DNA of 64,000 bases from Vigna angularis (Eukaryota; Streptophyta; Magnoliopsida; Fabales; Fabaceae), in the NCBI RefSeq assembly GCF_016808095.1, contig NC_068970.1, positions 43,931,630-43,995,629 of the forward strand. Direction: 5' to 3'. Both the position numbers and the translations under genes were made by a program. The notes under the pieces are model-generated. The model had not been told where the DNA came from. It ran no database searches and saw only the letters and a list, made by a program, of their open reading frames with translations. Numbering within the stretch: the stretch's first letter is position 1; every line of letters begins with the position of its first letter. Below are positions 23,008 to 64,000 of this stretch, piece after piece.

Positions 23008-23470
23008 ATCATTTCTCACTCCACATGACAAATAACTATTCACTCAATAAAATTTATTCAAAACAAAGAACCAACAAAAATAAATAAAATTTAACCAAAA
23101 ATTAATATTAATCAAATTAATCAATTTTTTTTAAAATTCCCTTTAAATCAAATTAAATACATAAAAAAAAATGTGTCCACGAGAAATCGTGTGTATTAAA
23201 ATACCTACCACCACCTTTCACTCACCTACCACCCACCCACCCTCCAATGGAGGCTCCCAATTAAAGCTCATGTTCTACTGTTTCAACAATAAAAAAACGT
23301 TTTCGGTTTACCATATATGTTTATTTTAACATAAAATATATAAATAAAATTGACTTTTAACCTAAAAAGAGTAACCTGATGTTTAAACCCCAAACAAACA
23401 AACCCAACCTTCTTCTTCCTTAGCATTATTCTCTCCGCTCAATCCACTCTGTGTAAACCCTAATTCCACG
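23008..23470 (+). promoter_or_regulatory. Upstream region of the TPR gene, with telo-box
   Basis: The region is A/T-rich with a C-rich patch (CACCTACCACCCACCC, about 23,220). A telo-box AAACCCTAA lies at 23,455-23,463, eight bases before the start codon. Telo-boxes are common in 5' regions of plant housekeeping and plastid-biogenesis genes. A clear TATA box was not identified. Confidence 0.5.
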
Positions 23471-24337
23471 ATGTTGACTTCTGCATCTTCCTCCATCTTC
23501 TACTTCATCCCCACTCCAAAGCCCTCACATTCTTCTCGCTTCACCGTTCGGGCTCACTCCAAACCCCCCGCTCTCCCCAACCTCAAAGCCCTCGCTGGCG
23601 CCGCAGTCTTCGCCGCCGTCGCCCTCCAATTCCCCTCCGCACGCGCCTCTCCCCCTCCTTCGCCCCCTCTCCAAACCGACTACCGCCACGAAGAATCCCT
23701 CACGCCGCTCTCAGACATCCTCGAAACGAACGTCGAGGCCCTCGCCGCTCTCAAGTCCCTCCTCCAGCAGAAGCTCGAGCTCGGCGAGGACGACGAGGCG
23801 CGGGCCATCCTCAAGCGCCTAATCGCCGCGCAGCCCGACGTCGTCGACTGGAAGTTCCTCGCAGCGCGCCTCGCCGCCGAGACTGGCGACGCCGATGGTG
23901 CTCGCGCGTACTACGAGGAAGTTCTGGCGGCAAACCCGCTCTCGTTCGAGGCGCTGTTCGAGAACGCACTGCTGATGGACCGGTCAGGGGAAGGGGAGGC
24001 GGCTATGCGGCGGCTGGAGGAGGCGCTGCGCGTGGCCGAGGAGGACAACAAGAAGAAGGAGGCGAGGGACGTGAGGCTCATCATAGCTCAGATCATGTTT
24101 CTTCAGAAGAATGTGGATGAAGCGTTAGGGATTTATGATCAGCTCACGAAAGAGGATTCGAGTGATTTCAGACCTTACTTTTGCAGAGGCATGATTTATA
24201 GCTTGCTTGATAGAAACGAGGAGGCAAAGGAGCAGTTTGCAAAGTACAGAGAGTTGAGTCCCAAGAAATTTGAGGTGGATGGGTATTTGAGAACCCCTTT
24301 GTCAAGGATGAAGCTGTTTAGCACCGATGAGAGCTGA
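23471..24337 (+). CDS. SG1: SLOW GREEN 1-like chloroplast TPR protein
   Basis: An intact single-exon gene of 288 codons. Residues 1-35 are rich in Ser, Pro and Arg with almost no acidic residues, as in a chloroplast transit peptide. Residues 39-53 form an alanine-rich hydrophobic stretch followed by ARA (57-59), suggesting membrane or thylakoid association. From about residue 85 to 270 the chain is helical with TPR-type spacing. Blocks such as NPLSFEALFENALLMDRSGE, ARDVRLIIAQI, FLQKNVDEAL, FRPYFCRGMIYSLLD and EQFAKYRELSPKKFEV match what I know of Arabidopsis SLOW GREEN 1, which is needed for chloroplast development and early greening. The start is set by the transit peptide and the telo-box just upstream. 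The first ~200 codons are very GC-rich and the remainder is not. An AATAAA stands at 24,371. Orthology rather than paralogy to SG1 is inferred. Confidence 0.9.
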   Translation: MLTSASSSIFYFIPTPKPSHSSRFTVRAHSKPPALPNLKALAGAAVFAAVALQFPSARASPPPSPPLQTDYRHEESLTPLSDILETNVEALAALKSLLQQKLELGEDDEARAILKRLIAAQPDVVDWKFLAARLAAETGDADGARAYYEEVLAANPLSFEALFENALLMDRSGEGEAAMRRLEEALRVAEEDNKKKEARDVRLIIAQIMFLQKNVDEALGIYDQLTKEDSSDFRPYFCRGMIYSLLDRNEEAKEQFAKYRELSPKKFEVDGYLRTPLSRMKLFSTDES

Positions 24338-26069: not shown

Positions 26070-28200
26070 GGAGGCAAAATTGGTCGCGCTTAGAGCAGAG
26101 AACACAACCATGAGTGTTGGGCAGAAGACTGTTGAAGCAGGACACAAGATTGTCCGGGTTGAGCGGACAGAGCAAAATACGACACCTGATGGTTTGTGGT
26201 GACCGAATGGAACGAAGGTCAGGGAGAGTAGGACGAAAACTATCCTAGAGGAGAGTATCGTAATGAGCAAAAAGATGGTGGTAAAGGTCGAGAGCACTAA
26301 CGATTAACTACTGTTTGTTCCTGCCACCTTTGAGGTTCATATTTCTAAGTTGTTTGTCTCACCGTAGTTCAAAATGTACGATGTCACAACTAACCTGGAA
26401 GACCACATCAAGACATTTACCAATCGGATAACGTTTCATACTTGGAAGGACGCCATCTGGTGTCGAGCCTTCTCCTTATCTCTAGAAGGGGAAGGGCTAG
26501 AGTGGTTCAATTCCTTGCCTCTTAACACAATTAAGAACTTTGAAAGACTTAAGCGCATGTTTGGACAACAATTTGCGGGCAACCAGGCCCAAGACTTGAC
26601 CGTTTTTGCGTTGGTAAACCCTAAGAAGGAGAAGGAAGAATCATTCAGGGCATTCATGGACCGGTATTAGAAGATCGTATGGCGGGTGAAGGACCTCAAC
26701 CTTGAACTCGCCTTGCAGTATGTACTCTCTACCCTCAGGCTAGAACTGTTCGTCGATAGCATTTGTCAACGAGCCCTTATGACTATGGAGGAGTTAAGGG
26801 AACGGGCGGAGGAGGTTATAAGGGTGGAGGAGATGAAGGAGGTTCATAAGAAGTAGAGACCGGAGGCGGCGGGTGAGAGAAAGGATGGAAAAAAGTCGGG
26901 CGGTTTCCTGGAGAAGCAAGGAGTATCTAGACAGAAAGAACCACCTAGGGGGCCCTGTTTTCAACAATACACCCCGTTGAATGCGACCAGGGCTAAAATT
27001 TTGCAGGAAGCTCTTAGCATAGAGCTAACTCCCATGCTGAAAAGACGCCCTACATCGCCCGGCGCGGACGACAATAAATGTTGTCTATACCGCAAAAATA
27101 TGGGTAACACTATGGAGGAGTACGTGACCCTAAGGGATAAGATTGAAGAGTTGATTCGGGCGGGGCAACTGAAAAAATAAGTAAAAATCGATCGCCAGCC
27201 AAAGCTATCGGAGCGAAGTCCGAGACGGAGGAGTCTAAACATGAGGGAATACTGTGGACGGTCGCGGTATAACAAAGACGACCGTCCATGAACGGCTACA
27301 AGGAGCAGGAGTCGCAACTGGAGCAACAATCGCCCCTTACGCGGGCATATTAATATCATTTCGGGAGGCTTCGCGGGCGGCGGGTCCTCGTCAGTAACCA
27401 GGAAGCGTCATGTCAAAGCTCTCTGGACCGTTCATGCTATGGATAGGCCTAAGAAGACCGCCCCTGACCTAGAGCAGGATGATCCTATGGTCATTACGGC
27501 GGAGATAACCAGGTATGGGGTGAGCAAGGTGCTTGTAGACAAGGACAACTTTGTCGACATTCTGTATTGGAAGATGTTCCAACAGATGTTGGAAGATCTG
27601 ATTGTGCCCTAAAACGAGCAAATAGTGGGCTTCGCAGGAAAACAAGTGGATACTTGGGGGTACGTGGAGCTTCGTACCCCCCTCGGGACCGGTCGGGAGA
27701 GCGAAGATTAGCGGGGCGTTACTTGTTGGTGGAAGTCAACACATCTTACAACGTGCTACTGAGCACCATGTTTTAACGCTTTCGGCGCTATCGTGTCAAC
27801 CCCTCATCTAACGATGAAGTACCCCTCGGACAGAGGGACGATCTATATCGTTCGGGAAAAACAAAAGATGGTTCGTAAATGCTACGTCGTTGGCCTAAAG
27901 CTCTATCCGCACACGACTTGGAGAAAAGCGAAGCGGTTGGAGGTCGCAATGGCGAATTTAGACCCGCGAACAAACACGGAGGATCGAATGAAACCTTTGG
28001 GGGAGGTGCAGTCGGTTGTCATGGGGAAAGACGACTCTCAAGTTACCACAATGGCTAAAGGGCTGGGACAAGGGGCCAAGCGGGAGCTGAGGTCCTTCCT
28101 TTGGCGTAACCGCGATCTCTTTGCCTGGATGGCGGTCGACATACTAAGGATCCACCCCTCGGTCATGTCTCACAAGTTGGCGCTTTTTAAGCAAGCGCGT
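26070..28200 (+). pseudogene. Broken Ty3/Gypsy gag-protease
   Basis: Plus-strand remains of a retrotransposon polyprotein with several stops and frameshifts. A gag N-terminal part (about 26,070-26,330) is followed by a capsid-like domain at 26,374-26,667 (W..A.WCRAFSLSLEG, LEWFNSLP, FERLKRMFGQQF), which stops early and then continues in frame (26,670-26,850). A further gag stretch is open at 26,977-27,177. A retropepsin-like part follows at about 27,340-27,780: ITRYGVSKVLVDKDNFVDIL sits where related elements have VLVD(G/N)GSS(A/V)DIL, so the active-site region is changed. The linker to reverse transcriptase (PHTTWRKAKRLEVAM, NRDLFAW, HKLALFKQAR, 27,793-28,200) is open and then ends abruptly at another repeat. 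No reverse transcriptase, RNase H or integrase remains. Confidence 0.8.
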
Positions 28201-29710
28201 AACACCCCTTACGGAGTACCACTAGAAAATAACAAAATCCAAAATTTTACGCCAGTTTTTTTTTTTAGATTAACATCACGGAACTAAACATCAAAAGTCT
28301 AGGCGTCTTACAACATAAGGTTAAAACCTTACAAATATCAAATTCATTATTCAAAAACATAAAATTACTTTAAAACATGATAAATCCCCCATAGTTATTC
28401 CCATAACTCTCATCTGGCTACTCCATCTCTGCCTCATCTGCAACGCCATCTACTTCTGTACAAGTACGATCATCGTAGGTGGAACCACAACCACAAAATG
28501 AAAGGGTGAGTAACTAAGAATTTAACATAGCATATAATTTCAATATCAAAATATCATAACTTAGATTATCCTAGTCACAACCTTACAATACAACACAATA
28601 TTCAACTCATAACTTAGATCATCACCACCCAGACTATCAAAGTCACAATATTACAATACATCACAGTATTAAACTCCCGACTGAATCATTTACACGAGCT
28701 TCTGTTGTTTCCTTGAATTTTGTCGTACCAAACCTGTTTCGCAAAACAGGGCGATTCGAGCCGTCTTCCATCGCAACTTCAGACCTATCTTCCCGACTGC
28801 TCAAGGAATTACGAGAAAAAACTTCGGTTAGACGCACCCACCGAGCACTATACTCACACAAGCCGAAGTCATTGGGCGAGACATCCAACCCTCTCTAGTC
28901 CCCGCGCATGAGGAAAGGGTGACACTCGAACCTCAGCCTCCGCAGAGACTCAACACACTATCGTATCGCAATACGAATACCATCGATTCGACAAAAATTA
29001 TAAGGAAATGACAGAACGCTTGCTCTCACAATTTTACCATCACAACCATCACACTCAAACCTCAGTCTCCGCATAGACTCAACACACTATCGTATCGCAA
29101 TACGAATACCATCGATTCAACAAAATTCTAGGGAAATGACAGAACGCTTGCTCTCACAATTTTACCATCACAACCATCACCATCATATATAAAGTCAACT
29201 AAATTCATTGACTAACAAATAATTAAATAACTTAATTTAATTATTTATCCTACTACTGCACCCCTCTGAAATTACTAATTTCACACTTCCATAAACTAGA
29301 ACAACATTTCTAGTGCACCCTCACTTTTTAATAAATTCCCAACACCAAAGAAAATACCTAATTTCAATACACCCATTTTTACTCTAAACACACTCCCTTC
29401 TACATCTAACTCTTCAAGTAAACCCCAAAACCATTAAATTACATTTTCTCTTACTTCCAAGTAGGTCCTAAATGAAACTACTCTCTCTCTTTCTCTATTT
29501 ACGTAACCCTTCACTTCTTTCTCTTTCTCTTTTGTTTTCAATACACAAATTTCATTCACTCATCTTTTCTCATAAAACCATGGATCCCACTTCCCACTTT
29601 ATTTGACTTTTCAAACCAAACAATTTCTTCCTCACACCAAAGTTAGGTAACCACTCTTCTTCACCCAACCACCTTACCTTTTTTTTTCCTTAAATTAAAT
29701 CCATCAACAC
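28201..29710. repeat. LTR fragment cut by the giant element
   Basis: It starts GTAACACCCCTTACGG, an LTR-style terminus directly abutting the gag-protease relic, and runs to the left end of the large array. It includes an AAATGAAAGGGTGAGTAACT block, an AACAGGGCGATTCGAGCCG stretch, a 129-bp tandem duplication (28,923-29,180) and a CT-rich tail. No coding region is present. It looks like an older LTR insertion into the Gypsy relic, later split by the Ogre-like element at 29,711. Confidence 0.45.
28923..29180. repeat. 129-bp tandem duplication
   Basis: Two units begin CACTC(G/A)AACCTCAG(C/T)CTCCGC at 28,923 and 29,052. Both contain ACACACTATCGTATCGCAAT, then ACGAATACCATCGATTC, and a CTTGCTCTCACAATTTTACC end. 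They differ at a handful of positions. Confidence 0.9.
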
Positions 29711-30038
29711 TGTCGCAACCGGAATCGCGACGGGACGACGATCCAATAAAAAGAATAGAATATTAGTTTTGAAAAGAGATTTTGGAGTCGCCACCATAGT
29801 TTATTCTGGAAAACTACGGAAAAACCATAAAATGATAAGGCATGGTCAAATTGAACCAGATTCTTGGTTCGGGAGTCGGTTACGTGTAGGGAAGGTATCA
29901 GCACCCTACAACGCCTGCCCTAAGGCAGTACCTTTAACTAAATGCGCGAATGTGGATGTGGTTTCAAAGTGTTTAACTTTCCCTTAAAATAAAACTCAAA
30001 AGAAACAAACAACATTTTTTTTAGTTTTTTGGGCTCGA

Positions 30039-30248
30039 CAAGGATTGACCTTGCTCCTACGTATTCTCATGCAGGATGAGAAATCAGGGTTACGTAGTTC
30101 TTTTAGAAACTGCTTGAGAAACTTGTTTGAAAATTTGTTTGAGAAATTGTTTGGAAAATGATTTGGATTTATGGGAAAGTGAGCCTGACAAGGACTGGCC
30201 TTGCTCCTACGTATCTCCACTTTTGATGGAGAATCAAGGATCACGTAG
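30039..30248 (-). repeat. Duplicated compound hairpin module in LTR1
   Basis: Two related modules, 30,039-30,097 and 30,189-30,248. Each has a small stem CAAGG/CCTTG, then an outer stem CTACGT(A)/(T)ACGTAG enclosing an inner stem. The inner stem is CTCAT/ATGAG in the first and CTCCA/TGGAG in the second, so both arms changed together. The same pair is at 45,365-45,574 and 60,602-60,811. The position is near the 3' end of the LTR in element orientation (U5 side). Confidence 0.7.
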
Positions 30249-30347
30249 TTCTGCAAGGCAATATTGTTTGTTGTTTGAAAATGTTGATGTTTTTAGTTTT
30301 TGAAGATTTTTTATATTTTTTGGTATTTTTTATTTAGGAGAATGAAG

Positions 30348-30491
30348 AGGTTTTTAGCACAAGGACGATGCGTGCGATCACACATGTGCCTAAACCTTTA
30401 AAACATATTTTTTTTGGATTTTTAATTTTAGAAAAGAGAAAAGGTTTTTAGCACAAGGACGATGCGTGCGATCACACATGTGCCTAAACCT
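30348..30491 (-). repeat. 94-bp hairpin unit, two copies in LTR1
   Basis: AGGTTTTTAGCACA pairs with TGTGCCTAAACCT around a GCGTGCGATCAC loop. The unit occurs at 30,348 and 30,442 here and only once in LTR2 (about 45,673) and LTR3 (about 60,910). This alone accounts for the LTR length difference. Confidence 0.8.
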
Positions 30492-30510
30492 TTGAAACAT
30501 ATTTTTTGCG

Positions 30511-30770
30511 TAATGAGTACTAGGCTGATGCGTACGATCGCACGAGCACTCACACGGCTTTTTTTTCCTTTTATTGTTTTGCGTAATGAGTACTAGGCTG
30601 ATGCGTACGATCGCACGAGCACTCACACGGCTTTTTTTTCCTTTTATTGTTTTGCGTAATGAGTACTAGGCTGATGCGTACGATCGCACGAGCACTCACA
30701 CGGCTTTTTATTTATTTTATATTTGGGCAATAAGTACTAGGCTGATGCGTACGATCGCACGAGTACTCAT
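30511..30770 (-). repeat. Hairpin array, 4 copies (LTR1)
   Basis: About 70-bp units, each TGAGTACTAGGCTGATGCGT followed by ACGATCGCACGAGCACTCA. The outer arms TGAGTACT and AGCACTCA pair fully only if the minus strand is the RNA (G-U instead of A-C). The last unit has AGTACTCA and pairs perfectly. The same array is at about 45,741-46,003 and 60,978-61,240. Confidence 0.8.
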
Positions 30771-31329
30771 ACCGAAATTTATTACATTAAATGTTTTTTA
30801 AAGTTTTATGTATTTTTTATTATTTATCATTTTTTCCCTTTTCTTTTTGAAATAAAACGAAATGAACAAATTCACTAAAACAAAAGGGTGTGGGGTATCT
30901 TACAAGGGGTTACATAAGTAAAAACTAATAACCAAACAAATAATAAAAATAAAGAAACAAAAGCTTAAAAATAAAACAAGAGAAACAAAACATGGATGTA
31001 GAGATAAAACCAGGAGTGACGTGTGAAATTGATGCTCCTTTGTATGGGCCAAAATCCCCTCTTTTGTCTTTGTATCCGTCAGGGGTGTCAAGGTAAAACT
31101 GGGGGTGCCATTGAATCTTTGCTTGTCAGGCTCAATTTCCCTTCTTTTTTTTTTACTTGCAGAAACAAATGGGCTTCGGCCCAAATGGAAGGGGTGTGAA
31201 TGGAGTTAGCGTGATGGCAGACAGAGAGAAATTGACCGAATAGGTAGGCCCAAGGTTTTGTTCCAAGCAGCAACATTAGGGGTTCTACTACTTTTCTCAG
31301 TGAAGCTCTTCCCCCTCCACTATACCGCA

Positions 31330-34560: not shown

Positions 34561-35104
34561 TTCGACCATTGTCATGCAGAGGGTCGTTTGAAAAAAATTA
34601 AACTCTGTACCTGACCATTGCCATGCAGAGGGTCGAGACAAAATAAAACTGAAAACTGCTTTCGACCATTATCTTGCAGATGGCCGGGATAAAAACAAAA
34701 TTGAAACGTGCGCTCGACCATTATCTAGCAGATGGCCGAGATAAAAAACAGAACAAAAGGTGCTTTCGACCATTATCTTGCAGATGGTCGAGATAAAACA
34801 AAATTGAAAAGGTGCTTTCGACCATTATCTTGCAGATGGCCGAGATAAAACAAAATTGAAACGTGCGCTCGACCATTATCTAGCAGATGGCCGAGATAAA
34901 AAACAGAACAAAAGGTGCTTTCGACCATTATCTTGCAGATGGTCGAGATAAAACAAAATTGAAAAGGTGCTTTCGACCATTATCTTGCAGATGGCCGAGA
35001 TAAAACAAAATTGAAACGTGCGCTCGACCATTATCTAGCAGATGGCCGAGATAAAAAACAGAACAAAAGGTTTCGACCATTATCTTGCAGATGGCCGAGA
35101 TAAA
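34561..35104 (-). repeat. Hairpin array next to the polypurine tract, copy 1
   Basis: About eleven units with a 51-53-bp step, each a TCGACCATTATCTTGCAGAT + GG(T/C)CGA inverted repeat (8-bp arms, 10-base loop). In units ending GGCCGA the arm pairs with a G-U pair only in the minus-strand RNA. Linkers are A-rich and alternate among three types (GATAAAACAAAATTG, GATAAAAAACAGAAC and others). Confidence 0.85.
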
Positions 35105-38100
35105 ATGGCAGAGAGAAAAAATGTTTGATTGCTTTGAAATTGACAATTGGAATTGGTTGAAATTTTGAGATGTTGAAAATTTTTTTGATTTTGATTGATT
35201 TTTTTTTTTTTTTTGAAAATTTTGCATAAGGTTGAAATTAAAAACAAGGTGCTGCATTTTTGTACAAGGATTTGAAATCTTGATATGCAAGAGAAACTTG
35301 ATTGATGTAAATTTTGAAATTTGGAGAAGAAAAGTTTGATGCATGTTGATTTTTTTTGTCTTTTTGAAGGAAGAAAATTTGATGTAATATACATGGAAGG
35401 GAAAACTTTGATGCATTTTTTTTGTCTTTTTGAAGAAGAAAATTTGATGAATATACCTGGAGGCAAGTTCAAAGTTGATGAAAATACGTACATGATGTAT
35501 TGGAATATTATGAAACTATGATTTTTGAGTCAATTTGCTTTCTTTGAAATCATCAAATTTATGACGATCTAGACTTCCAATTTCTTTTCAATGGACGTCC
35601 AAATTCTAAAGTCAACTGTGCAAAATGAAGCTTGTGTGCCACACATTTCTTGACGAGATACTAGTGTGTACATGCTTGATATCAAGGGTTTGAAAAATAT
35701 GTGGAGGATGATTGGAAGGATTTGGAGAGTACCGGGATGGCTACTTGAGCCTCTTACTCCTTAAAACGGCTACAAAGGCCAATGTGAGGTAGTAGATACC
35801 CAGAAGCTGCTCTGGAACATGGTAGAAGTATTGGTATGGACACATGTATCTGAAATGAGAGGGAATAAGTCAGGAATCAGGGAGTGAGAATATCATGTGT
35901 GATTTGCAAATTGCCCCAATTATGGTGGTTTTAGACTTTGAAGTTCGGGGCGAACCAAGATCATGCAAGGCCCAACAAGGGATGCCCCAGTCTTTGTATG
36001 AACTTTGAATGTTCAGATGAAAAAATTTGAGATTTTACAAAATTGCTCAATACTCTGAATGGGCTGAAGCATATGAAAGTCACGCCTTGGTTTTGGGTAT
36101 GAGTCAATTAAGCGAGGTTCCACAAGAAGTTGCCCCCCACTTTGGGTTTACGAATGATAAGATGGACTCAAAATCATACAAAACCCCAAAGTGTCTGCCC
36201 CTGTTTTGAGGGTGGATTCATGAATTTCAGTGCGGACAAATCTGAGAGGCCCAACAAGGGATGCCCCGGTCCTGGTATGAACTTTGAATATACAGATGAA
36301 ACAAATATGAGATTGACAAAGTCGACCAGTATTCTGAATGGGCCGGGCCGAAACATATGAAACTCACATAGTTGCCCCAGTTTGGAAGAACAGGCGAAAA
36401 GGTTATGAAGAGCTTACAAAGTTGTCCTAAGTTTGGGAATCGGGGGAAGAGTTTGGATGGGATTTGAATGTGTTCAGGAAATTGTGATGGGTATGGAAAG
36501 GATTGGCTTGAAAAGATTGCCCCAAACGGTTTGATTTTCCTCTGTAAAATCTTAATCAAAAGGGAGTTCCCTTCATCCGAGGACATTTATTTTTCATCAT
36601 CATTTTCATTTTTTTTTTTGACTGCATTGTTAATCATTTTTGCCTTGTCCCAAAAATTAAGCTTCATGAAAATTTAAGCAACCATTATTCAATCTGTGTG
36701 GACTTTTATTGGGCTTGTAATGTGGCTTGGGTTAAGGGGTATTGAAAGAAAGGATATAAAGGCTCAAATAAAATTTTGTGGGTTATTTGAAACAAGAGTT
36801 ATCATCTGCACCTTGCGTCAGTTATTCGTCAAAACTGTTTTGACTATTTTGCCCTTTCTCAAATTTCATTCTTTGCTTGCCATCACTTCGTGATTCTTGC
36901 CATTTTTGCTTCACTTTTGAGGAGTTCTCTTTATTTGATCACTAAGTGTGTTCTTTTGCAATCTGAGTCGACTTCTACTGTGATGGTAACCCTTGTTTGG
37001 GTAAAATTTTGAAAAGAAAATTCTGATTGGCTCAAATTGGGTATCAAAGGATATATTTTTGTTTTTTTTTTTTTTGGATGAAGAAAAATGGCCACACGTC
37101 ATTTCAAATATTGGTTGTTTCATTTTCAAAAGATTAATTAAGAGACAAAGACTAAATGATCTCAAGAGAGTCATTTTTCATTCCCTTTTTTTATTTTTTC
37201 TCTTTTTTTTCGGGCTTCAGGATCTCCCAAATGAAAGTAGTGAAGGATGGAAAATCTGCCCCAGTGTAAAGCTTGGTGTTTATCATTTGGGCTCAAGAAC
37301 ATGATTGGGCCAATCTCTTGGTATAGCGAGGGCTGAAGGATGATGTTTCCAAGCAATGCACACACAGATATCTCTTAAGAATATGTGACTCAAACATTTG
37401 ACTACAGGAGATTATGACATCCATTACAATTTTTTTGAAATCTCATAAAATGGATGATTTGCATCGAAAACAAATGACTCAAACTTTTGCGTATTTTTTG
37501 GTTTTATGCATGAAGAAAAGTATATGAAATGAAAATGATGATGCTAGTTGAAAAACAGATTCTTTTTTTTCTTGTTTGAAAAATGGGCTTTGCAGATCAG
37601 CCTGGAAACTGGACCTTGTGAGCCATTGGGGAAAATGAGATTTTTTTGGAATCTGGGCCTTGCGGGTCAGTATGGAAACTGAGCTTTGCAGACTAGTATG
37701 GGAAATGGGCTTTCTTGGCCATTGGGGAAATGTGATTTATGAGCTGTTGTGGAAATTGAGATTTTTTTTCGTGGAATCTGGGACTTGCGGGTCAGTATGG
37801 AAACTGAGCTTTGCAAGCCAGTAAGGGAAATGGGCTTTCTGAGCTTATATGGAAATTGAGATTTTTGCCATTATGGAATTTGGGCCTTGCGAGCCAGCAT
37901 GAAAACTGGGCTTTGCAAGCCATTATGAAAAATGAACTTTCTGGGCTAATGTGGAAAATGAGCTTGGGAACCAGTGCAGAAACTCGGTTTGGCGAACAAT
38001 GCAAAAATTGATATGAGGAAACTTGATTTTAGAAAAACGTTTGAAAAATAAAAATGTTTTGTTTTATTCATTTACACAATGTGAAAACACTAAACATATT

Positions 38101-39360: not shown

Positions 39361-39540
39361 GTGAAATCGGATCATCCAAGAAGTCTTGAATTGGGCCGGA
39401 TCGACCCAACAAAACCCTACCCGTTTCAGATTTTCAAAAATTTTTATTATTATTTTTTTTTTTGAAAACTCAGAAAGAAATCAGACCGACACCAGGCAGT
39501 TGCAGCGACCGGAACTGTAGCCACAGTGGATTTGCTCAGC

Positions 39541-39723
39541 TATAAAACGGGTACCCCTTCGGCGTCTGAGCGACATTTTCCCGATCTCGCTCTCTCTCTA
39601 TCTTTCTCTTTCTCCCTCTTCTCTCTCTTCCTTGAGTGTCTGGACTTCTGCGAGGCTCCTCCGTCCCCGCCTTCCACAGCGTCCGTGCCTTCCGAGGAGC
39701 TTCCGTGTGTCTTCCACTTCCAG
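39541..39723 (+). promoter_or_regulatory. TATA box and untranslated exon 1 of the homeobox gene, copy 1
   Basis: TATAAAA at 39,541-39,547 is followed within about 30-40 bp by a CT-rich leader (GCTCTCTCTCTATCTTTCTC), a typical plant core promoter and 5' leader. A consensus donor CCAG|GTAAGTC ends exon 1 at 39,723. The intron runs to the acceptor TTTTGTTTTAG at 40,487 (764 bp), leaving 18 untranslated bases before the start codon. Confidence 0.7.
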
Positions 39724-40505
39724 GTAAGTCTTCTAAGCTCTAAATCCTCTTCCTTTCCTACTCTTCCGATCTTTCCTTCTCTCCTTTCTCTGCTTTTTTT
39801 TTTGTTCAGTTTTCCTGTCTTTCTTCTCATTATGCTCTTTTTTTTTTATCTCCTGCTTTCTGCTCTTCTTTTCTTTTATGCTTTTGCTTTCTGTTTTGCT
39901 TTCCTTCCCCTCTCCCCTTTCTGTTTTTCTTTTCTGCTTTCCCTTCTTGCAAGCTCTTTATTTTCTTCTGCTTTCTGCTTTGTCTGCTTTTATTTCTTTC
40001 TCGCCTTTCTCTGCCTTTCTTTCTGAGTCTTCTTTCTCTTTTCTTTTTTTTTTAATTTAAAAAAAAAACTCAAAACACTTAAAAACACAACTGTCTTAAA
40101 CTTAAGGGGTATATAGGCTGGAAACCAGACGTTAATCTCCCTTCGATTGAAGGTATGGCAGAGACAATCGGGTAGAACAACGCCACGTACCCCATAAAAT
40201 CAGAAAACTTAAAAAGAGAATTTTATTTGTATGAATCGAACATGGACAAATGGACAAGGACAAAAGGACAAGGATAAAAGGACATAGATCCGTTTAGGAC
40301 CCTCTTGCAAGGACCGTGAAACAGATCCGAGACCGGACACTGAAATAACAAAGACTGATCGGACAAAATAAACTAAAGGAAACAAAAACGAATAAAGAAA
40401 ACACTGCAAATACTTCTTTTTTTGTTTTATGCTTTTGTTATGTTCTTGTTCTTTTTACTTTTTTTTTATTATTTTTTTTTGTTTTAGAAAACTTAGAGAG
40501 GAAAG

Positions 40506-41074
40506 ATGAGCGAGATGGAGATGGAGAGATACTCCGGTCAGCGGTGGAGACCTACCGACGATCAGGTCAGAATGATGACCAATATTTACAATCATGGGGT
40601 CACACATCCCAGCCGAGCGCAAGTCGTCGAGATCGCGTCTCGACTAAGGGTTTTCGCTGATGTCACTGAATACAATGTGCACTGCTGGTTTAACAACCAC
40701 GGCAATCGAGTCAGACGCTGGCAAGCGGAGATAGACCCCACTGGCACTCAGTTTTCACAACTACCGCTATATATGTATGGTAAGTACCCTGATCACTTCC
40801 ATCTCCTTTCCTTTCTTTTTTTTTTCTTGAAAATATCTCCTCATCTTATTATTGACAAAAAAAATTTCTTTTATTATTTTTTTTGGAAGAATACGACTGG
40901 GTGATCATGAGGGCGCCGAGGCTGCTGAACTTGTTCCCCGTTCCGATCATCATTGACGACGACAGGGACACACGACAAATCGCTCCACCCATGCTTCTCA
41001 CATTCCGGACTAGAGCTCCCTCGACGGAGCTCTCCCTCAGACCACCGCAACCAGCTCGGGAATTTTTTCGCTGA
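40506..41074 (+). CDS. WUSCHEL-like (WOX) homeobox gene carried antisense in the retroelement, copy 1
   Basis: Two coding exons, 40,506-40,779 and 40,890-41,074, join through a GTAAGT...GGAAG intron in phase and encode 152 residues. Residues about 12-73 are a WOX-type homeodomain: RWRPTDDQ start (W14), a PSRAQVVEIASRL second helix, and NVHCWFNNHGNRVRRWQ as recognition helix with the invariant W61, F62 and N64 and the WOX-type NH. Residues 102-109 (RLLNLFPV) resemble the WUS-box (TLxLFP). They are followed by an acidic patch (IDDDRD, 113-118) and an EAR-like ELSLRP (138-143). That order is the one seen in WUS-clade WOX repressors, which control stem-cell and organ founder cells. It would be a nuclear DNA-binding protein. 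The gene is opposite in strand to the retroelement and keeps its introns. Function and expression are unknown. It is diverged from known WOX proteins, so binding specificity may differ. Confidence 0.8.
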
Positions 41075-45015: not shown

Positions 45016-45033
45016 TCCCCAGTGGAGTCGCCA
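45016..45033 (-). other. Primer binding site (tRNA-Arg), copy 1
   Basis: Minus strand TGGCGACTCCACTGGGGA, two bases after the LTR end. Its complement is the 3' end (with CCA) of a plant tRNA-Arg with acceptor GACTCCA. An Arg primer is a known feature of Ogre elements. Confidence 0.85.
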
Positions 45034-45035
45034 TC

Positions 45036-48000
45036 TGTCGCAACCGGAATCGCGACGGGACGACGATCCAATAAAAAAAGATAGAATATTAGTTTTGAAA
45101 AGAGATTTTGGAGTCGCCACCATAGTTTATTCTGGAAAACTACGGAAAAACCATAAAATGATAAGGCATGGTCAAATTGAACCAGATTCTTGGTTCGGGA
45201 GTCGGTTACGTGTAGGGAAGGTATCAGCACCCTACAACGCCTGCCCTAAGGCAGTACCTTTAACTAAATGCGCGAATGTGGATGTGGTTTCAAAGTGTTT
45301 AACTTTCCCTTAAAATAAAACTCAAAAGAAACAAACAACATTTTTTTTAGTTTTTTGGGCCCGACAAGGATTGACCTTGCTCCTACGTATTCTCATGCAG
45401 GATGAGAAATCAGGGTTACGTAGTTCTTTTAGAAACTGCTTGAGAAACTTGTTTGAAAATTTGTTTGAGAAATTGTTTGGAAAATGATTTGGATTTATGG
45501 GAAAGTGAGCCTGACAAGGACTGGCCTTGCTCCTACGTATCTCCACTTTTGATGGAGAATCAAGGATCACGTAGTTCTGCAAGGCAATATTGTTTGTTGT
45601 TTGAAAATGTTGATGTTTTTAGTTTTTGAAGATTTTTTATATTTTTTGGTATTTTTTATTTAGGAGAATGAAGAGGTTTTTAGCACAAGGACGATGCGTG
45701 CGATCACACATGTGCCTAAACCTTTAAAACATATTTTTTGCGTAATGAGTACTAGGCTGATGCGTACGATCGCACGAGCACTCACACGGCTTTTTTTTCC
45801 TTTTATTGTTTTGCGTAATGAGTACTAGGCTGATGCGTACGATCGCACGAGCACTCACACGGCTTTTTATTTCTTTTGTTTTGCGTAATGAGTACTAGGC
45901 TGATGCGTACGATCGCACGAGCACTCACACGGCTTTTTATTTATTTTATATTTGGGCAATAAGTACTAGGCTGATGCGTACGATCGCACGAGTACTCATA
46001 CCGAAATTTATTACATTAAATGTTTTTTTAAAGTTTTATGTATTTTTTATTATTTATCATTTTTTCCCTTTTCTTTTTGAAATAAAACGAAATGAACAAA
46101 TTCACTAAAACAAAAGGGTGTGGGGTATCTTACAAGGGGTTACATAAGTAAAAACTAATAACCAAACAAATAATAAAAATAAAGAAACAAAAGCTTAAAA
46201 ATAAAACAAGAGAAACAAAACATGGATGTAGAGATAAAACCAGGAGTGACGTGTGAAATTGATGCTCCTTTGTATGGGCCAAAATCCCCTCTTTTGTCTT
46301 TGTATCCGTCAGGGGTGTCAAGGTAAAACTGGGGGTGCCATTGAATCTTTGCTTGTCAGGCTCAATTTCCCTTCTTTTTTTTTTACTTGCAGAAACAAAT
46401 GGGCTTCGGCCCAAATGGAAGGGGTGTGAATGGAGTTAGCGTGATGGCAGACAGAGAGAAATTGACCGAATAGGTAGGCCCAAGGTTTTGTTCCAAGCAG
46501 CAACATTAGGGGTTCTACTACTTTTCTCAGTGAAGCTCTTCCCCCTCCACTATACCGCAACGCAGGGACCACAGGGAGGCATCGGTCTCCTCTCATGCGC
46601 GCTCACGGAGCAACCACGGCAACGGCCACCGCACCGAGAGCTAGGGCGTCGTCGGAGCCACTGATCACCGTCGAGGTCGCTGCTGGCCACTGCGCCAATC
46701 TCTTCTTCCTCTTTTCTTCCACCCGCGAGAGAAAGACCCTCACCTCTCCACGCCGCGCCAACGCCGTCATCGACGAGATCAACCACCGCGAGCCATGAGT
46801 CCAGGTCGCGGTCACGCGGCTGAGATCGCGGAGAGGAGTAGTGCGAGTCTGAGGAAGCTGCCGCGAGAGTGGCGGGGATGGAGGCGATTCGCGATGGTCG
46901 ACGAAGGGGCAAAGGTGGGTGGCTGGTGTTAGGGAAACTTCACGGTGATGTTGGATTGCAGTTCGGAGCTGGGTGAAGGCAATGACGGAGATTGACGGTG
47001 GTGTTGTGGTGAGTTTGAGTTGATCTGAGATGAGAAGATGATGGGTGGTGAACGCGGTATCTATGAGAGTTTCGGTGGCGGTAGCGGTGGTGACAGTGAG
47101 GGGAGTGTGGTTAGGAGTGATGAGTTGAGGAAAGTGAATGTTGTTGAAGGGGAAGGCCCGTGAAGTAAGGTGAAGATGATGAGGTTGTATGACCGTGGGA
47201 TAAGGTTGGTCGTGGCAGTGGGTTTGGAAGAAAAAGAAAGCGGTTTGGAAGGTTACGGGTGAAGGTCGTGAGAGGCAAAGGCCCTGGTCAGAGGTTGAGA
47301 GAGTCAGCTGAAGATGATGGCTTCCCAGTAGCCGTGGTATTCATTGTTGGAGGTGAAACTGAAGAAGAAAGGGATGGAGGTAATGGATGGATGAAGATCA
47401 AGTGTTGGAGGTGAATGAAGAGATGATAGGTAACGGTGCTGCAGTGAGTGGTAGCCGTGAGGTGTTGGTTGCAGCAGAGGATGAATGATGATGGGTTCTA
47501 TGGGATAGGTTTCAGGAGCATAGTGATGGCTGGAGTGGAAATAATGTGTTGGAGATGGCTATGGCAGTGAGTGATAATGGTCATGAGGGGAAAAGGCCCT
47601 GGTTGTGGCACTGGTGAATATGGGTGTTAGGAAATTGGCCGTGTATAAGGTGGCTGTGACAGTGGGGAATATGGATGGTAGGTTGGGAGCCGTGAGGTAA
47701 GGTGAAGATGGAAGGGATGTCTTCATCACAGGTGTCTCCCCCCCCTTTTCCCTCTGCTGCTTGCCTTCTTTCATAGCCAAATCTCAGAACCCGTGAGCCT
47801 CCCAATCTACTCAGAAATCTTCCCGTGACCCTCTTTTCTTTTGCATGCTGAGCTACAGTTTTTTGGCCGTGAGAAAACAGGGTGAGGGCCCCTCAATCTT
47901 GTCTTCTTCTTCATACGGTGGACACCCTGTGCGTGTGGTTGCTTCCTCTTCTGTGCATGCTGGATGGTGAATCGAAATTGGTGTAGATGAGTTGATTGAA

Positions 48001-49788: not shown

Positions 49789-50332
49789 TTCGACCATTGT
49801 CATGCAGAGGGTCGTTTGAAAAAAATTAAACTCTGTACCTGACCATTGCCATGCAGAGGGTCGAGACAAAATAAAACTGAAAACTGCTTTCGACCATTAT
49901 CTTGCAGATGGCCGGGATAAAAACAAAATTGAAACGTGCGCTCGACCATTATCTAGCAGATGGCCGAGATAAAAAACAGAACAAAAGGTGCTTTCGACCA
50001 TTATCTTGCAGATGGTCGAGATAAAACAAAATTGAAAAGGTGCTTTCGACCATTATCTTGCAGATGGCCGAGATAAAACAAAATTGAAACGTGCGCTCGA
50101 CCATTATCTAGCAGATGGCCGAGATAAAAAACAGAACAAAAGGTGCTTTCGACCATTATCTTGCAGATGGTCGAGATAAAACAAAATTGAAAAGGTGCTT
50201 TCGACCATTATCTTGCAGATGACCGAGATAAAACAAAATTGAAACGTGCGCTCGACCATTATCTAGCAGATGGCCGAGATAAAAAACAGAACAAAAGGTT
50301 TCGACCATTATCTTGCAGATGGCCGAGATAAA
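49789..50332 (-). repeat. Hairpin array next to the polypurine tract, copy 2
   Basis: Near-identical to the copy-1 array. One unit reads GATGACCGA in place of GATGGCCGA near 50,218. Confidence 0.85.
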
Positions 50333-53300
50333 ATGGCAGAGAGAAAAAATGTTTGATTGCTTTGAAATTGACAATTGGAATTGGTTGAAATTTTGAGATG
50401 TTGAAAATTTTTTTGATTTTGATTGATTTTTTTTTTTTTTTTGAAAATTTTGCATAAGGTTGAAATTAAAAACAAGGTGCTGCATTTTTGTACAAGGATT
50501 TGAAATCTTGATATGCAAGAGAAACTTGATTGATGTAAATTTTGAAATTTGGAGAAGAAAAGTTTGATGCATGTTGATTTTTTTTGTCTTTTTGAAGGAA
50601 GAAAATTTGATGTAATATACATGGAAGGGAAAACTTTGATGCATTTTTTTTGTCTTTTTGAAGAAGAAAATTTGATGAATATACCTGGAGGCAAGTTCAA
50701 AGTTGATGAAAATACGTACATGATGTATTGGAAGATTATGAAACTATGATTTTTGAGTCAATTTGCTTTCTTTGAAATCATCAAATTTATGACGATCTAG
50801 ACTTCCAATTTCTTTTCAATGGACGTCCAAATTCTAAAGTCAACTGTGCAAAATGAAGCTTGTGTGCCACGCATTTCTTGACGAGATACTAGTGTGTACA
50901 TGCTTGATATCAAGGGTTTGAAAAATATGTGGAGGATGATTGGAAGGATTTGGAGAGTACCGGGATGGCTACTTGAGCTTCTTACTCCTTAAAACGGCTA
51001 CAAAGGCCAATGTGAGGTAGTAGATACCCAGAAGCTGCTCTGGAACATGGTAGAAGTATTGGTATGGACACATGTATCTGAAATGAGAGGGAATAAGTCA
51101 GGAATCAGGGAGTGAGAATATCATGTGTGATTTGTAAATTGCCCCAATTATGGTGGTTTTAGACTTTGAAGTTCGGGGCGAACCAAGATCATGCAAGGCC
51201 CAACAAGGGATGCCCCAGTCTTTGTATGAACTTTGAATGTTCAGATGAAAAAATTTGAGATTTTACAAAATTGCTCAATACTCTGAATGGGCTGAAGCAT
51301 ATGAAAGTCACGCCTTGGTTTTGGGTATGAGTCAATTAAGCGAGGTTCCACAAGAAGTTGCCCCCCACTTTGGGTTTACGAATGATAAGATGGACTCAAA
51401 ATCATACAAAACCCCAAAGTGTCTGCCCCTGTTTTGAGGGTGGATTCATGAATTTCAGTGCGGACAAATCTGAGAGGCCCAACAAGGGATGCCCCGGTCC
51501 TGGTATGAACTTTGAATATACAGATGAAACAAATATGAGATTGACAAAGTCGACCAGTATTCTGAATGGGCCGGGCCGAAACATATGAAACTCACATAGT
51601 TGCCCCAGTTTGGAAGAACAGGCGAAAAGGTTATGAAGAGCTTACAAAGTTGTCCTAAGTTTGGGAATCGGGGGAAGAGTTTGGATGGGATTTGAATGTG
51701 TTCAGGAAATTGTGATGGGTATGGAAAGGATTGGCTTGAAAAGATTGCCCCAAACGGTTTGATTTTCCTCTGTAAAATCTTAATCAAAAGGGAGTTCCCT
51801 TCATCCGAGGACATTTATTTTTCATCATCATTTTCATTTTTTTTTTTGACTGCATTGTTAATCATTTTTGCCTTGTCCCAAAAATTAAGCTTCATGAAAA
51901 TTTAAGCAACCATTATTCAATCTGTGTGGACTTTTATTGGGCTTGTAATGTGGCTTGGGTTAAGGGGTATTGAAAGAAAGGATATAAAGGCTCAAATAAA
52001 ATTTTGTGGGTTATTTGAAACAAGAGTTATCATCTGCACCTTGCGTCAGTTATTCGTCAAAACTGTTTTGACTATTTTGCCCTTTCTCAAATTTCATTCT
52101 TTGCTTGCCATCACTTCGTGATTCTTGCCATTTTTGCTTCACTTTTGAGGAGTTCTCTTTATTTGATCACTAAGTGTGTTCTTTTGCAATCTGAGTCGAC
52201 TTCTACTGTGATGGTAACCCTTGTTTGGGTAAAATTTTGAAAAGAAAATTCTGATTGGCTCAAATTGGGTATCAAAGGATATATTTTTGTTTTTTTTTTT
52301 TTTGGATGAAGAAAAATGGCCACACGTCATTTCAAATATTGGTTGTTTCATTTTCAAAAGATTAATTAAGAGACAAAGACTAAATGATCTCAAGAGAGTC
52401 ATTTTTCATTCCCTTTTTTTATTTTTTCTCTTTTTTTTCGGGCTTCAGGATCTCCCAAATGAAAGTAGTGAAGGATGGAAAATCTGCCCCAGTGTAAAGC
52501 TTGGTGTTTATCATTTGGGCTCAAGAACATGATTGGGCCAATCTCTTGGTATAGCGAGGGCTGAAGGATGATGTTTCCAAGCAATGCACACACAGATATC
52601 TCTTAAGAATATGTGACTCAAACATTTGACTACAGGAGATTATGACATCCATTACAATTTTTTTGAAATCTCATAAAATGGATGATTTGCATCGAAAACA
52701 AATGACTCAAACTTTTGCGTATTTTTTGGTTTTATGCATGAAGAAAAGTATATGAAATGAAAATGATGATGCTAGTTGAAAAACAGATTCTTTTTTTTCT
52801 TGTTTGAAAAATGGGCTTTGCAGATCAGCCTGGAAACTGGACCTTGTGAGCCATTGGGGAAAATGAGATTTTTTTGGAATCTGGGCCTTGCGGGTCAGTA
52901 TGGAAACTGAGCTTTGCAGACTAGTATGGGAAATGGGCTTTCTTGGCCATTGGGGAAATGTGATTTATGAGCTGTTGTGGAAATTGAGATTTTTTTTCGT
53001 GGAATCTGGGACTTGCGGGTCAGTATGGAAACTGAGCTTTGCAAGCCAGTAAGGGAAATGGGCTTTCTGAGCTTATATGGAAATTGAGATTTTTGCCATT
53101 ATGGAATTTGGGCCTTGCGAGCCAGCATGAAAACTGGGCTTTGCAAGCCATTATGAAAAATGAACTTTCTGGGCTAATGTGGAAAATGAGCTTGGGAACC
53201 AGTGCAGAAACTCGGTTTGGCGAACAATGCAAAAATTGATATGAGGAAACTTGATTTTAGAAAAACGTTTGAAAAATAAAAATGTTTTGTTTTATTCATT

Positions 53301-55743: not shown

Positions 55744-56314
55744 ATGAGCGAGATGGAGATGGAGAGATACTCCGGTCAGCGGTGGAGACCTACCGACGAT
55801 CAGGTCAGAATGATGACCAATATTTACAATCATGGGGTCACACATCCCAGCCGAGCGCAAGTCGTCGAGATCGCGTCTCGACTAAGGGTTTTCGCTGATG
55901 TCACTGAATACAATGTGCACTGCTGGTTTAACAACCACGGCAATCGAGTCAGACGCTGGCAAGCGGAGATAGACCCCACTGGCACTCAGTTTTCACAACT
56001 GCCGCTATATATGTATGGTAAGTACCCTGATCACTTCCATCTCCTTTCCTTTCTTTTTTTTTTTTCTTGAAAATATCTCCTCATCTTATTATTGACAAAA
56101 AAAATTTCTTTTATTATTTTTTTTGGAAGAATACGACTGGGTGATCATGAGGGCGCCGAGGCTGCTGAACTTGTTCCCCGTTCCGATCATCATTGACGAC
56201 GACAGGGACACACGACAAATCGCTCCACCCATGCTTCTCACATTCCGGACTAGAGCTCCCTCGACGGAGCTCTCCCTCAGACCACCGCAACCAGCTCGGG
56301 AATTTTTTCGCTGA
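55744..56314 (+). CDS. WUSCHEL-like (WOX) homeobox gene carried antisense in the retroelement, copy 2
   Basis: Coding exons 55,744-56,017 and 56,130-56,314 predict the same 152-residue protein as copy 1, with homeodomain, WUS-box-like LNLFPV and EAR-like ELSLRP. The only coding difference I see is CTA to CTG (Leu, residue 87), which is silent. The splice sites are the same. The intron between the coding exons is 2 bp longer, from T-tract variation. So both copies remain able to make the protein. Confidence 0.8.
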
Positions 56315-60252: not shown

Positions 60253-60270
60253 TCCCCAGTGGAGTCGCCA
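60253..60270 (-). other. Primer binding site (tRNA-Arg), copy 2
   Basis: Identical 18-base site, two bases from the LTR3 end. The leader before it matches copy 1. Confidence 0.85.
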
Positions 60271-63200: not shown

Positions 63201-64000
63201 GATGGTGAACCGAAATTGGTGTAGATGAGTTGATTGAAACTGGAGCTGCTGTCCGTGTGTGCTGGACGGTTGTTGGACGCTACTTCTGGAGTTGGACGTG
63301 TTGGAGCTGCTGGACAATGGCAGTTGCTCTCCAAGGTTGGCCACTTGCTGGATGTGCTTCTCCCAAGTGATAGCACCTCTCCTTTTTCAATAATATCACA
63401 TGTGTGGCAAAAGTAACGTGGAGGATGCAATTCATGTTTCAGCTTTGTTAAAATGAAGCATTTCCTCCAGCTAGGCCGTGGGCATTTTGTGTGGCAGGAG
63501 CACTTCTTTACGCATACTCCAAGTTGCTCTCCTGGACGAGTGGTAGAAAAGGGTGAGTTGGACGAGCGTAGATGAGGGGGAACGAATTCGGCGAGCGGTC
63601 GCGCAAAGGACGAGCGCTCAAAACCGAATGCAGGGAAAACGAACGCTGTAGGAGACCGAACGTTCAAAAAAAGAAAGTGAGTGCCCAAGTGATGACCGAA
63701 CGCTCATTAAACAATAAAAACCGAACGCTCAATAAACAATATAAAAACCGAACGCTCACTAACACATAACACTTCAAAACCGAACGTTCACTAACACAAA
63801 CATGACCGAACGCTATTTGCTGAACATCACAATGGGACGAACGTGCAAAGCCGAACGCTAAGGCATATATCATTGAGCCCGAACGTTTGTCAAAACATTA
63901 TGACCGAACGGTTGAAGATGAGGACGAACGTCCTAACACAACGAAAAGCCGAACGGTTGAACAGTGCAAAGGACGAACGGTCACTGTTTGGACGAGCGGC
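60273..64000 (-). repeat. LTR3, truncated by the window end
   Basis: 3,728 bp of the same LTR, starting TGTCGCAACC after the second primer site. It follows LTR2 closely, including the single copy of the 94-bp hairpin unit, with a few own changes (for example CTCTACTGC near 62,990). The window ends inside its CGAACG array. Confidence 0.88.

Follow-up and report, generated by a model that had tools for sequence, protein, structure and literature searches.

Large long terminal repeat (LTR) retrotransposons of the Tat group can carry an accessory gene in antisense orientation (aORF-3R), as described for maize Grande gene23, rice RIRE2, Silene Retand, and bean PvRetro13 (PMC7264820, PMC11963269). 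Where their products are discussed in the 2020 paper, these proteins have no clear similarity to others, with SMC or transposase-28 domains at most, and capture from host genes is argued against (PMC7264820). Host genes captured by LTR elements, such as maize Bs1 and those found in rice and sorghum surveys, are described there as usually being in sense orientation and present in one or few copies (PMC7264820). Here, we analyze a 64,000-nucleotide stretch of the Vigna angularis genome (contig NC_068970.1, positions 43,931,630 to 43,995,629 of the forward strand, assembly GCF_016808095.1), referred to as the window and numbered from its first letter, in which a gene at 39541-41074 with a WUSCHEL-related homeobox (WOX)-type homeodomain lies within a large repeated element. 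We think it probable that this element is a non-autonomous LTR retrotransposon with an intact antisense WOX-type gene, likely an accessory gene, and that the gene product is a DNA-binding repressor acting in trans for the element.

The locus shares features with both described groups. As in the aORF-3R systems, the element is large and bears an extra gene that is antisense to it, with a promoter of its own (reported for Grande) and a product suspected to be nuclear or to bind DNA (PMC7264820, PMC11963269); the antisense orientation by which aORF-3R genes are recognized is found here. Unlike in those systems, the product is a recognizable WOX protein, an intron lies within the frame, gag and pol were not detected, and the gene is located in the half of the internal region nearest the primer binding site. 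Like Bs1 and the cases in the rice and sorghum surveys, the locus has a host-derived coding sequence within an LTR element, but here that sequence is antisense, intron-bearing, present in many predicted copies, and conserved in its motifs.

The gene reads on the plus strand. A TATA box (CTATAAAACG, at 39541) is followed by a CT-rich leader and a predicted untranslated exon 1 (39541-39723), and a predicted protein from another copy, P0179, reads through this region (match at 39472-39678). A predicted intron of 764 nt (39724-40487; splice sites GTAAGT..TTTTAG) precedes the start codon. The coding exon at 40506-40779 contains the homeodomain (protein residues 12-73), as judged from the sequence, Pfam, a PDB search, and the fold of a model. 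It is separated by a predicted 110-nt intron (40780-40889; GTAAGT..GGAAG) from the exon at 40890-41074, which encodes WUS-box-like RLLNLFPVP and EAR-like STELSLRP and ends with the stop codon at 41074. The spliced frame (40506-40779 plus 40890-41074) has 152 codons and a stop, and of the two introns only the second interrupts it. On these points the sequence reads as the initial annotation had it: a TATA box, a CT-rich leader, two consensus introns (splicing being predicted), a 152-residue frame, and, C-terminal to the homeodomain in the translated second exon, LNLFPV followed by ELSLRP. A second copy, 15.2 kb further along in unit 2 of the array described below (55744-56314, plus strand; exons 55744-56017 and 56130-56314), encodes an identical protein, and the coding exons of the two copies differ by one synonymous change.

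That the homeodomain is of the WOX type, as had been proposed, is borne out by profile and structure searches. The 152-residue product matches the Pfam Homeodomain profile with an E-value of 8.7e-8 (32.3 bits; cut-off 22.9). Its only significant phmmer matches in the PDB, STENOFOLIA (1e-10) and WUSCHEL (7.5e-10), are its best solved relatives; the third match had an E-value of 0.19. The possibility of a chance open reading frame (ORF) was rejected on the strength of the Pfam and PDB matches and 58 homologous protein clusters (best E-value 3.6e-97). An AlphaFold2 model was built for P0001, a family protein 97% identical to the window copy. It has helices at residues 18-29, 37-47, and 55-76, with mean predicted local distance difference test (pLDDT) scores by block of 80-91 for residues 11-60, 73 for 61-70, and 56 for 71-80 (61.5 overall). 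The top 11 Foldseek matches of this model in the PDB were STENOFOLIA and WUS homeodomains (best E-value 7e-5).

The WUS-box consensus is T-L-x-L-F-P-x-x, and the forms found in the family, LLNLFPVP and LLDLFPIP, lack its first T. WUS reads bases through R38, Q89, N90, and R94, according to PMC7203112. In alignments read by eye, the window copy has R, N, N, and R at these positions, and a more distant second clade of the family has R, Q, N, and R. An early idea that DNA specificity was strongly altered was dropped, since R38, N90, and R94 are retained when compared with the residues listed there (PMC7203112). Binding of TOPLESS is described as requiring both the WUS-box and the EAR motif (PMC10573764). 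The retained base-reading residues, together with the WUS-box-like and EAR-like motifs, therefore predict a DNA-binding repressor.

The sequence justifies calling the gene WOX-derived. Among Arabidopsis reference homeodomains, the highest-scoring match of the window copy is WOX2, followed by WUS, WOX1, and WOX6, and five second-clade proteins scored best with WOX8/9. A tree of 64 residues, comprising 11 of these Arabidopsis homeodomains, five WOX5 proteins, and element-family proteins, splits all family homeodomains used from all WOX references (support 99), and the 64 residues do not separate the subclade. The initial annotation had called the gene WUSCHEL-clade-like. The C-terminal motifs do recall that clade, but because the homeodomain scores are mixed and the tree leaves the subclade unsettled, filing the gene under the WUS clade proper is not justified. 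Family proteins resemble the WOX family in the homeodomain, the WUS-box-like LLxLFPxP, and the C-terminal EAR-like SLRL/P; they differ in being borne by a mobile element and in their divergent sequence (P0001 is 24-26% identical to three host WOX5 proteins).

The gene belongs to a large family. When 5.8 billion proteins were searched by sequence, 58 clusters among 65 candidates reached an E-value of at most 1e-3; all are named V. angularis, and together they have 257 member sequences (the largest clusters having 62, 50, 34, and 30). A profile search returned 71 clusters among 826 candidates, namely the 58 and 13 new ones (12 from V. angularis and one, P0187, from V. radiata; 21 members). The family total is thus 71 clusters, 70 named Vigna angularis and one V. 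radiata, with 278 member sequences. These figures should not be read as a count of copies or an exact list of species, because members may be redundant between several V. angularis annotations and two UniRef names break off at "Phaseolu". Several members are annotated as WUSCHEL-related homeobox 1, 2, 4, 7, or 8. We define the first clade as 59 cluster representatives (the 58 and P0179) and the second clade as the remaining 12 (P0180-P0191), which are more distant WOX-like proteins represented by several copies in V. angularis and a single one in V. radiata.

Searched with tblastn against the first repeat unit of the window (E-value 1e-3), six of the 71 family proteins (P0002, P0016, P0039, P0056, P0057, and P0179) include stretches from other parts of the unit, at 44.7-44.9, 37.6-38.0, 33.3, and 39.5 kb; the match of P0039 is 19 residues on the minus strand. 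A seventh protein, P0049, matches 16 residues of intron 1. Since six predicted proteins extend into the unit, the gene is joined to other element parts at other loci and travels with the element. It had been claimed that the element captured and is spreading a transcription factor gene with its own promoter. This stands insofar as a genuine WOX-type gene is present in many copies, 26 of the 59 first-clade representatives being near full length (93% coverage and 70% identity filter), and has a promoter-like leader of its own.

These 26 proteins formed the first-clade conservation set, in which the data are proteins only, are cluster representatives derived from predicted gene models, and changes are counted as distinct site and residue pairs. 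The 161 distinct residue changes were unevenly distributed: the recognition helix had 4 (16.3 expected), the WUS-box region 4 (14.2 expected), and the whole homeodomain 45 (65.6 expected), compared to 102 in linkers and tails (70.2 expected). At most 9 of 2,000 simulations were as extreme under each of three mutation models. The second clade is 39-53% identical to P0001 in local alignment and 41-51% in multiple alignment. For seven of its 12 proteins, identity to P0001 was 0.70 in the helix, 0.69 in the WUS-box region, and 0.84 in the EAR region, whereas the two linkers reached only 0.34 and 0.18 and the tail 0.01. The corresponding values for V. radiata P0187 are 0.62, 0.64, and 0.73. LLxLFP is found in 10 and LSLR in 11 of the 12 proteins. 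Intron-like stretches at the position of intron 2 in P0184, P0186, and P0188 suggest that this intron is likely common to both clades. Since the DNA-binding and repressor-like parts are conserved among relatives, the gene is probably a functional regulator that the element has retained rather than an accidental passenger.

Several observations weigh against this interpretation. The residue-similarity test was weak: the observed mean BLOSUM62 score was -0.16, compared to simulated means of -0.55 to -0.36, which is the same direction as the regional bias but exceeds all 500 simulations by a clear margin only when the transition bias is lowest. Selection is judged here at the protein level, the DNA covering the window copies only. 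In the first clade, LL/LM-x-LFP is kept in only 39 and LS/LT-LR in 38 of the 59 representatives; many that lack the motifs are truncated or differently predicted models. Within the second clade, P0189 is without both C-terminal motifs, and the helix of P0185 is only 0.44 identical to that of P0001 (WUS-box region, 0.79; EAR region, 0.82). Relative to WUS, the window copy has the changes Q89 to N, K92 to G, and Y86 to C, which may weaken or shift binding, and it keeps neither the first WUS-box residue nor a strict LxLxL. The WUS-type site TGAATGA is not enriched (none in the putative LTR; 5 in unit 1, with 5.7 expected), and TAAT cores are not enriched in the putative LTR. Two TGAATGA sites in the 1-kb promoter are non-significant, this number being reached in 26 of 300 simulations. 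These site counts gave no support to the simple idea that the protein binds its own LTR. Expression, splicing, and function are all predictions.

The element itself is a 15.2-kb unit repeated in tandem from 29711 to the end of the window at 64000, amounting to two full units and a quarter, with LTRs shared between neighbors. Units 1 and 2 differ by 16 substitutions and a few indels over 15.2 kb, and the leftmost LTR differs by a 94-bp subrepeat. All features of the element have minus-strand orientation. The LTR that bounds the array on the left (29711-30829; the 3' LTR of the leftmost unit) ends in CCGGTTGCGACA at 29711, the same terminal sequence as that before the primer site at 45036, and its end adjoins unrelated DNA, the array border lying exactly at the LTR end. 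Two nucleotides past the LTR end, the primer binding site TGGCGACTCCACTGGGGA (45016-45033) matches 17 of 18 positions at the 3' end of a plant tRNA-Arg(ACG) sequence that ARAGORN reads as tRNA-Arg (acg). The LTR common to units 1 and 2 (45036-46059) has the same terminal sequence, and the second unit has its tRNA-Arg-matching primer binding site at 60253-60270. Both array primer sites are the best tRNA-Arg matches within the 64-kb window, the next best matching 14 of 18. An LTR end in CA that adjoins a tRNA primer binding site, as expected of an LTR retrotransposon, is thus present. The inner LTR borders, TGATAAAT at 30829 and that at 46059, are only candidates, since the unit repeats as a whole with a single period, and the LTR length is about 1.0-1.1 kb. 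The tract AAAAAGAAAAGGGAAAAAA (30830-30848), obtained from purine-run scans, is one of several candidate polypurine tracts. In the earlier placement of the gene between the primer site and polypurine tract of one element, the tract is thus no more than a candidate.

The gene lies on the plus strand and the LTR end and primer site belong to the minus strand; thus, the element extends from about 45036 down to 29711, with the WOX gene in antisense orientation. The opposite orientation was ruled out, as the tRNA-Arg match lies on the minus strand. No stop-to-stop ORF in the array is longer than 245 amino acids. Pfam was searched with the unit 1 stop-to-stop ORFs of at least 120 amino acids (13, including the gene's own) and one unit 3 ORF. 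No match to any Pfam family, gag and pol included, exceeded the cut-off in the 12 other unit 1 ORFs and the unit 3 ORF, shorter degenerate pieces lying outside this search, and no reverse transcriptase was found among the searched ORFs of the unit. Matches below the cut-off were to zf-U1 (E-value 0.054) and ChAPs (0.0016), neither of which is gag or pol. Given no gag or pol match among these ORFs, we read the element as a non-autonomous LTR retrotransposon. The initial description of a giant LTR retrotransposon is thus kept as regards a large LTR-type element and refined to one with an antisense gene and no detectable gag or pol. A tRNA gene scan of the 64-kb window and a scan of viral contigs for the primer-site sequence each gave no matches. 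Within the 14.2-kb internal region, the distance to the primer site is 4.0 kb from the gene stop and 5.5 kb from the TATA box; with no pol found, this position could equally fit a 5' reverse type. PMC6317226 lists tRNA-Ala, Arg, Asp, Lys, and Trp as those mainly used by non-chromoviruses, and the non-Met primer (tRNA-Arg) found here is no more than suggestive of the Tat/Ogre/Retand lineage. The unit also contains several tandem subrepeats; those at 34613-35105 and 49841-50333 are nested 52/103/155-bp repeats reminiscent of the tandem arrays of Retand elements.

Under the accessory-gene interpretation, a WOX gene would have been captured together with its intron. Antisense introns would go unrecognized and unspliced in the genomic RNA of the element, and a gene that has introns and its own promoter could therefore pass through reverse transcription; in this respect, the Vigna family suggests why the antisense direction suits such a gene. 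The protein would enter the nucleus and read DNA via the retained R38, N90, and R94 (WUS numbering), and its WUS-box-like and EAR-like motifs may recruit TOPLESS-type co-repressors. It could then repress host or element genes to the element's benefit, for example in meristem cells leading to the germline, with Gag and Pol presumably supplied by an autonomous partner. A bolder version, which we advance tentatively and consider doubtful, is that a retrotransposon lineage domesticated a stem-cell transcription factor, and that the antisense WOX gene, selected since before the split of adzuki and mung bean, reprograms meristem or germline expression and makes cells permissive for transposition, as a plant counterpart of a retroviral regulatory gene.

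Alternatively, a WOX gene captured once may have been merely copied along, its intact frames reflecting youth and annotation bias. Given the near identity of units 1 and 2, intact frames would be expected of recent copies in any case, and 33 of the 59 first-clade proteins fail the near-full-length filter. However, residue changes are scarce in the recognition helix and WUS-box region, and the distant second-clade proteins, including the V. radiata one, have mostly retained the motifs, which neutral drift would probably not have allowed; we therefore regard a passive passenger as unlikely. WUS uses the same motifs to bind DNA and TOPLESS, which raises the prospect of an effector directed at host development that would shift meristem fate and thereby increase the number of element-permissive stem cells entering the germline. 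This is rather improbable, as the three recognition-helix changes may move the protein off host WOX targets.

Two further explanations dispense with a role for the protein or with the element. The antisense transcript, not the protein, could matter by pairing with the element's genomic RNA and tuning silencing or replication, an idea put forward for antisense accessory genes in PMC7264820 and compatible with the orientation of the WOX gene. It leaves the amino-acid-level conservation of two separate motifs unexplained, and we give it little credence. The array could also be a host WOX family expanded by tandem duplication and misread as a retrotransposon: the window does hold a tandem array, no gag or pol was found among the ORFs searched, and the right end of the array lies outside the window, placing any 5-bp target-site duplication out of reach. 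Such duplication would not account for an LTR end in CA followed, after 2 nt, by the window's best match to tRNA-Arg, for the array border exactly at the LTR end, or for family proteins from many contigs, some carrying other unit parts, and is very hard to credit.

The initial annotation knew of no described element of this kind. The class of antisense accessory genes had in fact been described, but none of those named in the parts of PMC7264820 and PMC11963269 drawn on here is a recognizable host transcription factor. The open-licence literature, covered mostly at the level of listings, yielded no report of a WOX or homeobox gene inside a retrotransposon, and the terms homeo-, WUSCHEL, WOX, and Vigna are all absent from the main text of the 2025 Retand survey (PMC11963269). 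As far as the literature searched shows, this is the first antisense accessory gene with a recognizable host transcription factor origin. An unremarked homeobox case may exist among the extra-ORF proteins of a 2019 study by Neumann, 21.4% of which are stated there to resemble known domains (PMC6317226). The origin and function of antisense accessory genes are unsettled, and the WOX-derived family makes both questions testable because its source gene is identifiable and its DNA-contact residues and co-repressor motifs are known. The family would probably escape surveys that start from reverse transcriptase and 600-bp ORFs (PMC11963269) or that require extra ORFs of 250 codons (PMC6317226). In addition, an element-borne family of this kind can inflate WOX annotation in Vigna genomes.

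Two other frames lie to the left of the array on the plus strand. A 174-codon frame at 27763-28287 has no Pfam match; by eye it resembles part of a Tat/Ogre-type polyprotein, and it is possibly a relic of an autonomous relative. An intact 316-codon stop-to-stop frame at 23387-24337 contains tetratricopeptide repeats (Pfam) and looks like an ordinary host gene, which we take to be a chloroplast tetratricopeptide repeat gene similar to SLOW GREEN.
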